Assembly (NCBI GenBank): GCA_027620015.1
Contig: JAQCGH010000016.1
Location: 1-36,027 of the forward strand
DNA from: Cyanobacteriota bacterium
Lineage (GTDB): Bacteria > Cyanobacteriota > Cyanobacteriia > PCC-6307 > Cyanobiaceae
Length of the DNA stretch: 36,027 nt
Direction: 5' to 3'
This document shows, piece by piece, positions 27,297-33,772 of this stretch (position 1 is its first letter; every line of letters starts with the position of its first letter). The translations under genes were made by a program, and so were the position numbers. Below the pieces are notes generated by a model. The model searched no databases, was not told the origin of the DNA, and saw only the letters and a list, made by a program, of their open reading frames with translations.

Positions 27297-28280
27297 TCAG
27301 CCAACCAATGTAGGCAAGGCAGCAAATGGGACGTTGAGCAGTTGGGGGCCCAACAGTGCTGCCTGCGGTAGGCGGGCCAGCAATAGCAACGCACAGATAC
27401 CAAATAAATAAAAGATCGACCAGCGGAACATCGCCTTGGCCCGTTGGGGTTCGTCAGGCTCGCTGCGTAGCTGGGAGCTCAGTTGCAACAGACGAGCGTT
27501 GAAGGGCAGCACCATCAAGCCGTAGAGCAAGCCACCGGTTGGCAGTGCCACGATCCCCAACAAGCTCAAGCCAACCGTGGCCCAGGCGTAATGACTGATG
27601 GCACGTGTGGTCACCGCGACTCCTTTGACCACCGGAAGCATCGGGATACCTACGGAGCGGTAATCGTCCTTAAGCAGCAGGGCAAGCGCCCAGAAGTGGG
27701 CTGGAGTCCACAACATCACCAAGGCAAACAACCACCAAGAAGACCAGCCAAGCGAGCCGGTAGCAGCAGCAGCTCCCACTAAGGGAGGGATTGCCCCGGC
27801 CACCCCGCCAACCACAATGTTCTGACTGGTGCGAGGCTTAAGCAGGGCGGTGTAAAGCAGCACGTAGCTGCAAAGGCCAAGCAGTGAGAGGCTGGCAGCC
27901 AGCGGATTTACTCCAACAACCAGCACCACCACAGACAAGATGGTGAGGCCGATTGCCAGTCCAAAAGCCTGGCGCTGGGCTAAACGACCAGAGGGCAGGG
28001 CACGACGGCTTGTGCGCTGCATGCGCCCATCCAGATCCTGTTCCCAAAGGCAATTGAGCACACCGGCCGCAGCCGAAGCCAGGCTGCCACCCACCAGCGT
28101 GCAAATAATCGTGCTGGCGGTGGGTGCATCGCTAGAGCTAAGTGCCATGCCCCCAAGGGTTGTGGCGAGCAGCAGCGGTATTAAGCGCGGCTTGGCAACT
28201 TCAAGCCATGCCGGCAATTTCACTGAGGGGCGGATCGGCTGGGCAGCAGCGATTGGAGGTGTGATCGTTGCACTAACCAT
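27297..28280 (-). CDS. ctaB: Protoheme IX farnesyltransferase (heme O synthase)
   Basis: CtaB (CyoE) adds a farnesyl tail to heme B, giving heme O, in the plasma or thylakoid membrane. From ATG 28280 the product has 327 residues and about nine helices. The Asp-rich prenyl-diphosphate motif is [23 protein letters not shown] in continuous sequence at about residues 90-112, and the second motif lies near [16 protein letters not shown]. The ATG overlaps the end of ctaA by 8 bp, which couples them. Together with CtaA it makes heme A for the divergently encoded oxidase. Confidence 0.97.
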
Positions 28281-29259
28281 GAGCCACCTCTGAAGACATT
28301 GGAGACATGGGCAAGGTCTGGCCTGAGTTGCCAAGGGAGCGAGCAAGCACCGCTGCGAGCAGACCGATCAGGAGTGCTGCAATCAGTTGGTGGCCAATAG
28401 TCACGAGTGGAACCTGGAGCTGGAGCTTCAAGGTCCAAATGCCCAGGCTCACCTGGGCGAACATCAAAACGGCCGCCCCCTGGGCGAGGCGTGGCAGCTG
28501 GCCCTGCTCAGGTGGCAGAAATAGGGTTGACGCTGCAAGGGCCAACACGGAAAGGGCTGCTGGAAGTGCAAGTTGTCGATGAGCAAGCAGCAAGCTGCAA
28601 CCATCACCGGCACTGAAACACTGATCTGCTGCCCATTGGCTAGCCATGATTCCACCCAGTAGGCACTGGCCGAACGTCAGCACCAGAGCCAAGCTCGCCA
28701 GCAGCTGCCACCAAAGAGGAGGACTGGTCGAGGGGGTATTCGCCATTGCCAAGCGCTGGTAAAGGCCGCTTGTGAGAGCAACTAGCAGCAATGCGGTGGC
28801 GAGGTGAGCCGTGACGAACGGCGCTTCTAGAAGTTGCGTGACCGTGAGAGCCCCAAGAGCTCCTTGAACCAGCACCAGAAAAAGCAATCCGGCAGATAAA
28901 AAGGGCACCCAAGCAGGCAAGCGTCGCCGCCATAAAAAGCTGGCTGCGGCAAGCACAAGCAGGGCCAAGCCCACCACGAAAGCGTCTAGGCGATGAAACC
29001 ACTCCAAAAACACCTGAATATTCATCTGCCGACCTGGCAGGAACTGGCCGTAGCAAAGGGGCCAGTCAGGACATGCCAGACCCGCCTCCATGACCCTGGT
29101 GGAACCGCCGATGCCAACCAAGGCCACCAAAGCCACCACCAGATGGGAAGCAAGTAGGGCGAGCCTCTTGAGCAGAACAGGGTTTGGTCTGCTGCTAATT
29201 CCTGAACCTTGACGCGGCTGGCGATATGTCGCCACGGAAACGACCAACCCGGAGTTCAA
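28273..29259 (-). CDS. ctaA: Heme A synthase
   Basis: CtaA (COX15 family) oxidises the C8 methyl of heme O to make heme A. The 328-residue product has eight predicted helices. The N-terminal half has the conserved [23 protein letters not shown] segment with the two-cysteine loop, followed by EWFHRLDAF with a heme-ligand His, and a second His pair in [15 protein letters not shown] and [12 protein letters not shown]. The start is uncertain: TTG at 29259, TTG 29247 or GTG 29235 are all in frame. It is divergent from ctaC with 170 bp between starts and overlaps ctaB downstream. Confidence 0.95.
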
Positions 29260-29429
29260 GGAAGCTAACCAAGTTGTTCATTACAAGTGATGCTGGATCG
29301 CCAAGATCACGAAGTGAAAACACCAGCGCTACAAGCAAGCCTCAGAGGCGTTGATTTGCCAACCAATGAAAGGTTGTCCCGCACATCGCAGCTAACGGCC
29401 ATAAGCTGACTAGAAGATCAAACAGCATC
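29260..29429. other. Divergent ctaA-ctaC intergenic region (170 bp)
   Basis: This gap separates the two halves of the oxidase gene cluster and must hold promoters for both. It is more AT-rich than its surroundings. I found no pair of -35/-10 boxes at good spacing and no clear operator repeat by eye, so I mark it only as the probable control region. Confidence 0.5.
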
Positions 29430-30272
29430 GTGCCGATTCGCACTGTTCTAGCTGTGTTCACGGCCACCACAGTCCTTGTCATAACTGGACTGTGGGTTGG
29501 CAACAACGTCAACCTGCTGCCGCCGGGGGCCAGCAGCAACGCATCCACTTACGACGAACTGTTTAAGGTTTTGTTCAGTATTGGCACGGTGCTCTTCCTC
29601 GGCATCGTGGTCCTGTTGATTTACAGCATGATTCGTTTCAGGCGCCGCAGTGGCGACATGAGCGATGGCCTGGCGATTGAAGGAAATCTCCCTCTAGAGA
29701 TCGTTTGGACGGCAATCCCAGCCGTAGTTGTTTTATTCGTTGGGCTATACAGCTACGACATATATGAGCGTATGGGTGGCATGGCCACGCTTAACGATCA
29801 CATGGCGATGGATCACGGAGCTATGCAACAGGTCAGTGTCAAGGAAGGTGATACAGCTGGGCGGGTTTGGGGTGGTATTGGCGTGTCTGGCATGGAGGCA
29901 GCACCTGGAGGACCAGTTTTGCCTGTGGAAGTTACTGCCATGCAATTTGCTTTTATTTTCCACTATCCAGGTTCGGATATAACAACAGGCGAACTTCACG
30001 TCCCAACTGGTCAACAGATTGAGTTACATATGGAAGCTCGTGATGTAATCCATGCCTTCTGGGTACCCCAGTTCAGGCTCAAGCAAGACATAATCCCCGG
30101 CCAACCAACCGTGCTCTCCTTTACCGCTACACGAGCTGGCACTTACCCAATCATCTGCGCCGAGCTCTGCGGGCCTTACCACGGCGGCATGCGCTCGAAC
30201 GTGGTAGTTCAAGAGCCTGAGGCCTACGACAATTGGTTGCAGCAGAACACTCCCAACAGCACCAACACCTGA
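29430..30272 (+). CDS. ctaC: Cytochrome c oxidase subunit II
   Basis: Subunit II takes electrons from cytochrome c or plastocyanin through its CuA centre. The 280-residue product has an uncleaved or weakly cleaved N-terminal segment, two membrane helices (about 47-68 and 92-110), then a lumenal cupredoxin domain. CuA ligands are His208, Cys243, Cys247, His251 and Met254 in the CAELCGPYHGGM motif. Between the second helix and the cupredoxin domain (residues about 115-160) lies a Met/His-rich insertion. The start GTG is at 29430. ctaD begins 10 bp after the stop. Confidence 0.97.
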   Translation: MPIRTVLAVFTATTVLVITGLWVGNNVNLLPPGASSNASTYDELFKVLFSIGTVLFLGIVVLLIYSMIRFRRRSGDMSDGLAIEGNLPLEIVWTAIPAVVVLFVGLYSYDIYERMGGMATLNDHMAMDHGAMQQVSVKEGDTAGRVWGGIGVSGMEAAPGGPVLPVEVTAMQFAFIFHYPGSDITTGELHVPTGQQIELHMEARDVIHAFWVPQFRLKQDIIPGQPTVLSFTATRAGTYPIICAELCGPYHGGMRSNVVVQEPEAYDNWLQQNTPNSTNT

Positions 30273-30282
30273 AGACACGGCC

Positions 30283-31905
30283 ATGACTCTGGCAAGCCCA
30301 AGCGATTTTGAAGACAACCTGCAGCCCCAAGGCTGGCTCCGCTACTTCAGTTTCAGCCTCGATCACAAGGTGATCGGGCTTCAGTATTTGATTTGCGGCT
30401 TCATCTTCTATTTGGTCGGCGGAGCCTTAGCTGGAATCATCCGCACGGAATTGTGGAGTCCAATGTCCGATTTCGTAAGTCGGGAGACCTACAACGAGAC
30501 GCTCACCCTGCATGGCACGATAATGATCTTCCTTTGGATCGTGCCTGTCGTAAATGGAGCCTTCGGCAATTATCTAATTCCCTTTTATGTGGGAGCTAGA
30601 GATATGGCTTTTCCCCGTCTAAATGCAGTCGCTTTCTGGCTGATCCCGCCTGCAGGCATACTTCTTATAAGTAGTTATTTTATTGCTGGAGCGGCTGCCC
30701 AGTCCGGCTGGACCGCGTATCCGCCGTTAAGTCTTACCACCCCAGCAGCAGGCCAAGTGGTGTGGATCTTGAGTGTGCTTCTACTTGGTGGTAGTTCAAT
30801 CTTTGGAGGCATCAACTTCATTGCCACCATTCTCAAACTTCGGCGTCCGGGCTTGAAGTTAATGATGTTGCCTTTGTACTGCTGGGCAATGTTAGGCACC
30901 AGTGTTTTAGTTGTTCTGTCAACACCAGTTCTTGCAGGCACACTAATTCTTCTCAGCTTCGACATCATTGCTCACACTGGATTTTTCAACCCAACGATGG
31001 GTGGCAATGTAGTTGTCTACCAACATCTATTTTGGTTCTATTCTCACCCGGCTGTATATATCATGGTACTACCAGCTTTTGGCTTGGTTAGTGAAATTCT
31101 ACCCATCCATGCGCGTAAACCACTTTTTGGGTATACAACCATGGTGTATTCGATCATGGCAATTGTTTTCCTTGGATTAATTGTTTGGGCTCACCATATG
31201 TTTACCAGCGGCACTCCGCCCTGGATGCGTTTGTTTTTTACTATTGCCACCTCCTTTATAGCTGTGCCAACGGGCATAAAATTCTTTAATTGGTTAGCAA
31301 CCCTGTGGGGAGGAAAGATTGCCCTTAATTCAGCGATGCTGTTTTCATGTGCATTCATAGTAAATTTTGTATTTGGCGGAATTACTGGAGTAGCTCTTGC
31401 CCAAGTACCTTTTGACATTCACGTTCATGATACGTACTTCGTGGTAGGTCACTTCCACTATATTGTTTACGGTGGCACAGTGTTTGTTATTTTCGGATCT
31501 TTATATCATTGGTATCCGAAATTCACTGGTCGACTGCTTAATGAAGACCTGGGTAGGCTCCATTTCCTTCTCACTTTCGTTGGCTTCAATCTCTGCTTCG
31601 CACCTCAGCACTGGCTTGGTTTAAACGGCATGCCCCGTCGAGTTGCCGAATACGATCCAGCCTTCACAACTCTGAATCAACTCAGCAGCGTAGGTGCCTT
31701 ATTGATGGCGATCAGCACCCTGCCACTGCTTATCAATGTCGTGGTTACAGCTATAAATGGCAAAAAAGCTGGTGATAACCCTTGGAATGCACTCACCCCT
31801 GAGTGGCTCACCAGTTCGCCACCACCGGTTGAGAACTGGCATGGCGAGGCTCCACTAGTGACTGAGCCATACGGCTACGGCCAGCACCTGGAGGCGAAAG
31901 CGTGA
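30283..31905 (+). CDS. ctaD: Cytochrome c oxidase subunit I
   Basis: Catalytic subunit of the aa3-type terminal oxidase, holding heme a and the heme a3-CuB site. The 540-residue product has twelve helices. Ligands are in place: His77 (heme a), His256 with Tyr260 (CuB and its cross-linked tyrosine), His305-His306 (CuB), His391 (heme a3) and His393 (heme a). Asp108 in GARDMAFPR marks the D-channel entrance, so it is A-family. Base composition drops to about 40 percent GC through its middle, unlike its neighbours. ctaE overlaps the stop by 4 bp. Confidence 0.98.
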   Translation: MTLASPSDFEDNLQPQGWLRYFSFSLDHKVIGLQYLICGFIFYLVGGALAGIIRTELWSPMSDFVSRETYNETLTLHGTIMIFLWIVPVVNGAFGNYLIPFYVGARDMAFPRLNAVAFWLIPPAGILLISSYFIAGAAAQSGWTAYPPLSLTTPAAGQVVWILSVLLLGGSSIFGGINFIATILKLRRPGLKLMMLPLYCWAMLGTSVLVVLSTPVLAGTLILLSFDIIAHTGFFNPTMGGNVVVYQHLFWFYSHPAVYIMVLPAFGLVSEILPIHARKPLFGYTTMVYSIMAIVFLGLIVWAHHMFTSGTPPWMRLFFTIATSFIAVPTGIKFFNWLATLWGGKIALNSAMLFSCAFIVNFVFGGITGVALAQVPFDIHVHDTYFVVGHFHYIVYGGTVFVIFGSLYHWYPKFTGRLLNEDLGRLHFLLTFVGFNLCFAPQHWLGLNGMPRRVAEYDPAFTTLNQLSSVGALLMAISTLPLLINVVVTAINGKKAGDNPWNALTPEWLTSSPPPVENWHGEAPLVTEPYGYGQHLEAKA

Positions 31906-32510
31906 CCAGCACCACACCGCTGCAGGATTCCACCGCCATTGAGGCAAGACAAGAGCAAGCTGAAGAAGCCCACGGCGATTTCCGCCTATTTGGCCTAGCC
32001 ACTTTTTTGGTGGCAGATGGCATGACATTTGCTGGTTTTTTTGCTGCCTACCTCACCTTTAAGGCCGTTAATCCGCTGCCGGAAGGGGGTATCTATGAAC
32101 TAGAACTGCTGCTCCCCACCATAAACACGGTGGTTTTGATCATCAGCAGTTTCACATTTCATCGCGCTGGCAAGGAATGCAGAGCCGGACAGCTGGGAGC
32201 CAGCCGCCTCTGGCTGGGAATCACTGGCGCTCTAGGCGCAATTTTCTTGGCGGGTCAGATGGTCGAATATTTCAATCTGCCCTTCGGCCTCACCGACAAT
32301 CTTTTTGCCAGCACCTTTTATGCCCTCACAGGCTTCCACGGACTGCACGTAACTCTTGGGGTGATCTGTATCACCATCGTTGCTCTGCAGACACGCCCAG
32401 GAGGCCGCATTAGCGCTACCGACCACTTTGGCCTCGAAGCAGCTGAGCTGTATTGGCATTTCGTTGATGGCATCTGGGTTGTGCTCTACGGAATCCTGTA
32501 TCTGCTTTAA
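31902..32510 (+). CDS. ctaE: Cytochrome c oxidase subunit III
   Basis: Subunit III stabilises the oxidase core. The 202-residue product has an acidic N-terminal tail, then five predicted helices; the five-helix short form is usual in cyanobacteria. Conserved segments are FFAAYLTFKAVNPLP, FHGLHVTLGVICI with its conserved His-Gly-Leu-His, and EAAELYWHFVDGIWVVLYGILYLL at the C-terminus. The start is GTG at 31902, overlapping the ctaD stop (GTGA), so translation is coupled. It ends the ctaCDE operon, 90 bp before cyabrB. Confidence 0.97.
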   Translation: MTSTTPLQDSTAIEARQEQAEEAHGDFRLFGLATFLVADGMTFAGFFAAYLTFKAVNPLPEGGIYELELLLPTINTVVLIISSFTFHRAGKECRAGQLGASRLWLGITGALGAIFLAGQMVEYFNLPFGLTDNLFASTFYALTGFHGLHVTLGVICITIVALQTRPGGRISATDHFGLEAAELYWHFVDGIWVVLYGILYLL

Positions 32511-32539
32511 CCCTCCAACTCGTCAACCTCTGGCACAGA

Positions 32540-32568
32540 TTGCGATTTCCCTGTATACCGGGCACAAT
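32540..32568 (+). promoter_or_regulatory. Candidate sigma-70-type promoter for cyabrB
   Basis: TTGCGA at 32540-32545 is followed after 17 bases by CACAAT at 32563-32568, a plausible -35/-10 pair in the gap between ctaE and cyabrB. It would allow the regulator to be expressed apart from the oxidase operon. This is a pattern match only; read-through from ctaE is not excluded. Confidence 0.35.
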
Positions 32569-32600
32569 GAATCGTTATCTGCATAGCGCAGGCCTTTTTC

Positions 32601-32999
32601 ATGGCGGCCAGGAACGGCGACAGCCCCGCGGACATGCTGGAAGGAAAGCCCCTTCTTGATCGGGCCCGCGCCCTGAGCAACCGTCCAGAGGACGAAATCG
32701 CCCGAGGCTGCGGCTACGTGGGTCCAAGTGGCCGCGTCCTCAAAAAAAGTTTTTATCGTGCGTTGGTGGCCGCCAAGGGCTATGCGATACCAAGCAGCGT
32801 TAGCAGAAGTGGCAACAGCGGCCAAGGCAAGGGGCGACAAGCTGATTTCCGCACCCGAGTACATGGCAACGGCAACCTGCTGATCGGCCAGGCCTATACC
32901 CGCAGGCTGGGATTGGAGCCAGGCCAGGAATTTCGGATCGAAATTCACCAAGACAATGGTTCGATCAGCCTGCTGCCGCTCGAACCAGTAGATCCCTAG
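32601..32999 (+). CDS. cyAbrB-family transcriptional regulator
   Basis: Cyanobacterial AbrB-like regulators (CalA/CalB type) bind DNA through a C-terminal AbrB domain and influence carbon/nitrogen balance and photosynthetic genes. The 132-residue product is basic in its middle (GRVLKKSFYRALVAAKG) and ends with the DNA-binding region NLLIGQAYTRRLGLEPGQEFRIEI (about residues 92-115), which is the cyAbrB hallmark with the domain at the C-terminus rather than the N-terminus. ATG at 32601. It lies immediately downstream of ctaE on the same strand, 90 bp away, with a candidate promoter in the gap. Confidence 0.9.
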   Translation: MAARNGDSPADMLEGKPLLDRARALSNRPEDEIARGCGYVGPSGRVLKKSFYRALVAAKGYAIPSSVSRSGNSGQGKGRQADFRTRVHGNGNLLIGQAYTRRLGLEPGQEFRIEIHQDNGSISLLPLEPVDP

Positions 33000-33106
33000 C
33001 CCTCCTGCTCGGTCGTCGCAGTGGAAGCTGATTCCCACCAGCACCGCAAACAAGAGTGAAGGCCTTCAATTCTTCGCCTCGCAAGTAATTACGCCAACCC
33101 CAGAAG
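33000..33106. other. Convergent gap between cyabrB and ribE (107 bp), no feature seen
   Basis: The region contains a 10-bp palindrome, GAAGGCCTTC (33058-33067), but no T tract that would make a convincing terminator, and no FMN riboswitch signature. A minus-strand open frame crosses it, but its first part is an out-of-frame shadow of ribE, so I do not call it a gene. Confidence 0.4.
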
Positions 33107-33772
33107 TCATATCCAGCCGTGATCTGCCAGCCAAGAGGCATTAATTGGCTCGGCCGCGCCAATGGAACCGGTGGCGGCCAGCAGACGCTCGGTGTATTTG
33201 GCAAGTAGATCTGCCTCCAGGTTGACCCCATCGCCCACGGCCAGCTGGGCCAAGGTGGTGCTGGCCCAGGTGTGAGGAATAACGGCGATCCAGAAACCAG
33301 CACCATCGGGATCGCAGCCGGCCACTGTCAGGCTGATGCCATCCACCGCCACGCTGGCCTTTTCGCATACGTAGCGGCCATAAGCGGGGTTATTCCAGGC
33401 CAGCTCCAGGCGCCAGGAGGCAGCCTGGCGTTCAATCGCCCGCACCACACCAAGCCCATCAACGTGACCGCTCACCAGATGGCCGCCAAGCCGGTCGGCC
33501 AGGCGCAGGGCCGGCTCAAGATTGACCGTTCCGCCCCGGTCTGCCTTGGCCGCCAAGGTTGTGCGGCTAAGGGTTTCCTCACTGACATCGGCGCGAAAGC
33601 CAGCGGCCAGCAGGTCAGCCACAGTGAGACAAACCCCATCTACCGCCACGCTCTCGCCAAGGGCCAGGCTGGCAGGAGTCCAGATAGCCCCCGGAGCTGC
33701 CGCCCACTGCAGCTGAACCCCATGGGGAGAACGGCGGATTACACCTGTGGCCTGCACCAGACCCGTAAACAT
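33107..33772 (-). CDS. ribE: Riboflavin synthase, alpha subunit
   Basis: Catalyses dismutation of two 6,7-dimethyl-8-ribityllumazines to riboflavin. From the ATG at 33772 the product has 221 residues, standard length, and starts with the invariant MFTGLVQATG. It is an internal duplication: two lumazine-binding repeats, the first with GESVAVDGVCLTVADL and the second with KASVAVDGISLTVAGC, and the linking NLEPALRLADRLGGHLVSGHVDG between them. The open frame continues upstream but the family start is unmistakable. It is divergent from the BFN gene by 61 bp. Confidence 0.97.
   Translation of the reverse strand: MFTGLVQATGVIRRSPHGVQLQWAAAPGAIWTPASLALGESVAVDGVCLTVADLLAAGFRADVSEETLSRTTLAAKADRGGTVNLEPALRLADRLGGHLVSGHVDGLGVVRAIERQAASWRLELAWNNPAYGRYVCEKASVAVDGISLTVAGCDPDGAGFWIAVIPHTWASTTLAQLAVGDGVNLEADLLAKYTERLLAATGSIGAAEPINASWLADHGWI

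Follow-up and report, generated by a model that had tools for sequence, protein, structure and literature searches.

The window, i.e., the whole stretch of 36,027 nucleotides that was analysed, contains an AT-rich valley in its cytochrome c oxidase operon, which was probably inherited vertically and arose in two layers, namely protein composition and a silent turnover that is raised locally, the lineage as a whole drifting towards AT. The first layer is formed by the GC-poor amino acids of the membrane oxidase subunits, CtaD above all. The second is a silent turnover about 2-3 times that of typical genes, which is common to the whole clade of the window and its four sister genomes and is located chiefly in codons 80-420 of ctaD. 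A literature search covering the titles and abstract openings of the papers listed found no account of this feature.

Composition of the oxidase operon

The sliding 500-bp GC content reaches its minimum of 0.420 at 31001-31500, compared with a mean of 0.611 for the whole window; it is 0.52-0.54 over 29001-30750 and 0.53-0.56 over 31501-32750. These values, together with the GC3 of ctaC (0.58), ctaD (0.49) and ctaE (0.58), confirmed the valley in the cox operon that was described in the initial annotation. Its G + C counts for the lines starting at 31021, 31081 and 31321 (23/60, 27/60 and 23/60) were all exact, and the line at 29461, given there as near 57% GC, was recounted as 34/60. The statement that the shift starts and ends within genes was likewise borne out, as the low-GC3 codons are clustered inside ctaD (p = 0.0005, the smallest value attainable with 2000 shuffles). 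This clustering is significant in the window and in none of the four sisters taken singly.

Based on curated family cut-offs, the three genes are predicted to encode subunits of cytochrome c oxidase. Subunit II is assigned to ctaC (29430..30272, forward strand), which matches PF02790 and PF00116 and scores above the cut-off of TIGR02866 (155.3, cut-off 147.7), and subunit I to ctaD (30283..31905, forward strand, GC 0.478), which matches PF00115 and scores above the cut-off of TIGR02891 (680.8, cut-off 670.75). Subunit III is assigned to ctaE (31902..32510, forward strand) by PF00510 (99.5, cut-off 23.8); its first 4 bases are shared with the end of ctaD, and no NCBIfam equivalog matched CtaE above its cut-off. 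The gene order and protein families are the same as in the cyanobacterial ctaCDE operon for the aa3-type cytochrome c oxidase. Compared with that operon, no unusual trait was noticed in the proteins, and only the silent-site composition stands out. The oxidase assembly gene ctaA (28273..29259, reverse strand, PF02628) has a GC3 of 0.61 and a silent divergence among the sisters of 0.17, which is above the median. The unstranded ctaA-ctaC intergenic region (29260..29429) is also low in GC (0.48).

The silent-site layer consists of two dips. The first covers approximately codons 125-200 of ctaC (29805..30029, forward strand, GC3 0.37), and the main one covers approximately codons 80-420 of ctaD (30523..31542, forward strand, GC 0.446, GC3 0.424). 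Between them, from ctaC codon 220 to ctaD codon 80, GC3 is near-normal (0.68-0.82), and it is near-normal again at the end of ctaD.

The rank of the valley within the genome was assessed on a sample of 360 kb in 20 stretches, including the window, with 278 mechanically chosen ORFs of at least 150 aa (GC3 mean 0.667, sd 0.084, median 0.69). The GC3 of ctaD is the 14th lowest of the 278, and its value corrected for amino acids (z = -9.3) is the 8th lowest; lower GC3 was found in urt genes, sufB and some accessory ORFs. Among 1418 windows of 500 bp, 12 have a GC content at or below 0.42 and 35, spread across 11 of the 20 stretches, at or below 0.45. The GC valley in ctaD is uncommon, not unique, within this genome. 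Two AT-rich accessory ORFs of the same genome (L129:112-1521 and L140:13618-14397) are candidate foreign genes; one has weak, sub-cut-off matches to pentapeptide repeats, and the other has no NCBIfam match.

The GC content of ctaD expected from its amino acids and the codon usage of the genome is 0.544, compared with 0.478 observed and a mean of 0.607 for the ORFs; therefore, about half of the deficit is due to protein composition. The remaining half lies in the silent sites, that is, in codon usage. A dip at the oxidase operon was present in all nine of the same-genus 20-kb loci compared. In the GC-rich genus mates G011, G008 and G014, the GC3 of ctaD is flat and high throughout (0.78-0.91), so their dip is essentially one of protein composition, and amino-acid constraint accounts for it. 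As the only cause of the valley in the window, however, amino-acid constraint is hardly credible and is refuted by the GC3 of ctaD, which is 0.49 where the amino acids predict 0.67, and by its z of -9.3.

Phylogenetic position of the valley

The closest relatives at the locus are the four sisters (G012, G005, G006 and G001), whose CtaD is 96-97% identical to that of the window. The trees based on the valley (1020 nt) and on its flanks (1821 nt) both group the window with these same four sisters, in the 53-taxon as well as in the 28-taxon dataset. The 53-taxon trees omitted L024 (taken as the genome of G011), L002 (short ctaE match) and rows with more than 30% gaps; the taxa for the 28-taxon trees and the AU tests were hand-picked. 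As clade supports may shift by one node after midpoint re-rooting, we relied on the topology and the AU tests. For the valley, the AU test gave p = 0.665 for the window with the four sisters and p = 0.519 for the same group with G004 and G015, while the grouping of the window with the G002 clade was rejected (3.7e-107). A clade of the four sisters excluding the window was not rejected (p = 0.204), which is to be expected if the window is the outgroup to the sisters. The unconstrained 53-taxon valley tree lacks the G004/G015 grouping of the flanks, and forcing this grouping costs 0.55 log units.

One explanation offered in the initial annotation was intragenic recombination, in which a segment of ctaD (and ctaC) was acquired from a lower-GC relative, sampled or unsampled. 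Such an import would fit a GC shift that begins and ends inside genes, as well as codons 240-330 of ctaD, where the window is 0.52-0.59 from its sisters, nearly the same as from G003 (0.52). Allele exchange also seems to occur in the clade: the UrtC protein of the window's genome is 96% identical to that of G006 and only 70-71% identical to those of G001, G005, G012 and G004, so an exchanged urt allele is likely. However, besides the concordance of the valley and flank trees and the rejection of the G002 grouping, no donor closer than the four sisters was found for the valley DNA in 16 genus genomes (own included) or, among the matches listed, in 400 family genomes. The sisters are 84-86% identical in both comparisons, and the next family genome among the matches listed is 79% identical. 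The 400 genomes, own and genus included, were evenly drawn from a larger group; 375 had a match, and two candidate places were scored per genome. None of the ten pairs among the five genomes showed a clustering of silent differences within the valley (scan p 0.085-0.888), a scan of limited power for very short tracts. Moreover, an in-house PHI-type test gave no signal in the valley, in ctaD or in ctaCDE (p 0.36-0.997). The same test was positive for three of ten other genes (groEL, 0.017; L127 16794-18629, 0.006; L135 9593-10963, 0.0005) and is therefore able to detect recombination here. These tests have limited power to detect numerous very short tracts or a donor from inside the clade that is missing from the sample. 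With no discordant tree, no closer genome among the matches listed, no patchiness and no PHI-type signal, the proposed recombination was not upheld, and we regard it as very improbable.

The psbA gene of Synechococcus and its phages is reportedly a mosaic of recombinant tracts, and in a conserved gene a silent-site mosaic would be the expected trace of such exchange. Unlike psbA, ctaD shows no donor, discordant tree or patchiness here. A phage-borne ctaD was also rejected as a donor, since the relatives found in one viral scan (three contigs) are only 45-47% identical and too distant. These contigs, L224, L225 and L226 from IMG/VR, are classed as viral, and host contamination is possible.

A second CtaD gene (51-56% identical) is present in 10 of the 15 genus mates searched, some of which are incomplete; it had no match in the window's own genome of 1.83 Mb (G000). 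The urea-transporter (urt) operon, located on contig C8 of the window's genome (L133:3716-8905), is strongly AT-rich, with a GC3 of 0.33-0.46.

Pace and direction of silent change

The comparison of silent change was based on 115 of 137 gene sets, retained when G004 was present, sister identity was at least 80% and the silent difference was at least 0.035; 103 of them were PHI-testable. Another gene comparison kept the 56 of 278 ORFs with matches in all four sisters. The sister-sister silent difference over the 115 sets has a median of 0.115 and a 95th percentile of 0.260, and it is 0.20 for ctaD and 0.23 for sufB. Within ctaD, it is 0.08-0.14 in codons 0-80 compared with 0.14-0.31 in codons 160-420, and the corresponding window-sister differences are 0.25-0.28 and 0.39-0.59. 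The silent divergence of the valley is raised in each pair of the clade, and the positional profiles of the window and the sisters are alike (rho 0.78), partly through shared ancestry. At the protein level, codons 80-420 are nearly unchanged, with 0-2 differences per sister in each segment of 80-90 codons.

Because the silent sites of the valley diverge most, not least, its codon usage appears to reflect fast AT-directed drift and not a selected preference. Thus, the other explanation in the initial annotation, constraint or codon bias on an oxidase gene, holds as far as amino acids supply about half of the deficit and codon usage the rest, but apparently not in the sense of selected codons. 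The same source expected that, without recombination, close relatives would share the low GC3. All segments do group with the close relatives, and the GC3 of ctaD in the sisters is lowered (0.65, compared with 0.73-0.81 in their groEL, abc1 and ctaB), but not to 0.49, and in the next outgroups, G004 and G015, it is not lowered (about 0.8).

Outside the clade, the contrast within ctaD is inconsistent: the silent difference exceeds that of codons 0-80 in 11 of 18 pairs for codons 160-240 and in 7 for codons 240-330. Codons 125-200 of ctaC differ more than codons 0-125 in 14 of these 18 pairs, so the fast turnover at the ctaC dip is wider than the clade. In GC-rich members, the GC3 of these ctaC codons (29805-30029) is not low despite the raised silent difference.

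The sufB and sufC genes, located on contig C16 of the window's genome (L135:15888-18185), resemble ctaD in their conserved protein (97% identity to the sisters for SufB), low GC3 (0.43 and 0.50, respectively) and raised silent divergence to the sisters (0.38-0.39 compared with a median of 0.27).

The direction of change was analysed at sites at which the four sisters and G004 agree, counting changes on the window's branch. In this analysis, 79 of the 115 gene sets were used, 66 of them ordinary, with four cta, two suf, two pst and five urt sets kept apart. In ctaD, GC-to-AT changes occurred at 56/157 sites and AT-to-GC changes at 6/28. In the ordinary genes, divided into tertiles of sister rate, the GC-to-AT changes were 427/3618 (0.118), 431/2694 (0.160) and 441/2791 (0.158), and the AT-to-GC changes were 32/460 (0.070), 43/370 (0.116) and 47/314 (0.150). 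The implied silent equilibrium GC of ordinary genes is 0.37-0.49; that of ctaCDE is 0.45 and that of sufBC 0.24. These estimates come from few AT-to-GC changes and from sites already conserved in five genomes. As the value for sufBC is lower, the cta and suf cases may not be one thing. The best-supported reading is that the window's lineage is moving to a silent GC of about 0.4-0.5 in general and that ctaD, moving 2-3 times faster, is nearly there.

A model based on rate only is incomplete, since rate alone is a poor predictor of depth. In 40-codon windows without cta and suf, the sister silent rate was not correlated with the GC3 loss against G004 (rho -0.04, p 0.48), and the value for ctaD is 0.19 lower than the regression predicts. 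This regression included 337 windows from the 56-ORF comparison; nine of its sets (five urt, three likely antisense ORFs and one more) and those without G004 were left out. Per gene (66), the sister silent rate weakly tracks the GC3 loss (rho -0.28, p 0.025), and its correlation with the GC3 of the window itself is not significant (rho -0.17, p 0.17).

Strand-specific mutation was set aside, as T-ending codons have replaced C-ending ones in ctaD and A-ending codons have replaced G-ending ones as well. An embedded RNA element was likewise rejected: no Rfam match was obtained over 28000-33500 at E up to 1, and the high silent divergence would argue against an overlapping constraint.

Possible causes of the faster turnover

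According to the reading preferred here, the oxidase subunits, being membrane proteins, are forced to a lower GC by their amino acids, and within the clade the silent sites of the operon, codons 80-420 of ctaD foremost, turn over about 2-3 times faster than those of typical genes. Ordinary genes of the window's lineage drift to AT too, with an implied equilibrium silent GC of about 0.4-0.5, and the general drift combined with the fast turnover has therefore placed the ctaD segment furthest along, near equilibrium (GC3 0.42), while purifying selection holds the CtaD protein nearly constant. The faster turnover may mean that GC-ending codons are less well maintained here, because codon selection is weaker, because GC-biased gene conversion is rarer, or for both reasons.

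Under GC-biased gene conversion, rarely recombining genes should have GC-poor silent sites, and the GC heterogeneity among bacterial core genes within a genome has been linked to recombination (Lassalle et al. 2015, PMC4450053). If the oxidase operon recombined less, it would escape both the push to GC and the homogenisation between species; we consider this escape a possible, albeit rather unlikely, cause. In the sisters, PHI-positive genes have a higher GC3 than the others (0.783, n = 27, compared with 0.751, n = 76; p 0.0096), also when the cta, suf and urt genes are removed (0.788, n = 26, compared with 0.768, n = 66; p 0.024) and in a partial correlation (p 0.018), and ctaA, ctaC, ctaD, ctaE, sufB and sufC are all PHI-negative (p 0.075-0.613). 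The direction agrees with Lassalle et al., in which core genes differ in GC3 and the recombining ones are GC-richer. However, the ctaD deficit is much larger than that pattern, lies within a gene and comes with raised silent divergence; the average PHI effect is small next to it. The contrast loses significance when the window is added (p 0.058, n = 75), PHI-positive genes, a urtA-like one among them, make up four of the 22 listed as GC-poorest, and the PHI-type test is an in-house one on five or six genomes. Moreover, the equilibrium of ctaCDE (0.45) is not below that of ordinary genes (0.37-0.49), although an escape from gene conversion leads one to expect a lower value.

Relaxed translational codon selection, whereby GC-ending codons would go unmaintained in a presumably weakly expressed oxidase, is an unlikely cause. 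It is consistent with the state of groEL and the PsaA/PsaB, Photo_RC and PSII family genes (which we take to be psaA, psaB and others), in which GC3 is normal for the amino acids and GC-ending codons are used at the normal level or slightly above it (z -0.9 to +2.7), and with the two psaA/psaB-type genes, which have the lowest silent divergence among the clean gene sets. However, relaxed selection would predict the GC3 of an ordinary gene (median 0.69), not 0.42.

It is also conceivable, though quite doubtful, that in this clade several housekeeping operons have conserved cores (ctaD, sufBC) that no longer take part in between-species gene exchange, with the result that silent divergence there is faster and composition moves to the mutational AT equilibrium. 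If true, recombination cold spots could be read from silent sites alone, inside a GC-rich genome.

Under the vertical, two-layered reading, a GC valley in a core operon can form without horizontal transfer, by amino-acid composition and fast AT-directed silent drift, and scans for foreign DNA based on composition would misjudge such a valley. The comparison of ctaD and sufB, which are conserved and AT-drifted, with psaA or groEL, which are conserved and undrifted, would offer a natural test of how GC-ending codons are maintained in picocyanobacteria.
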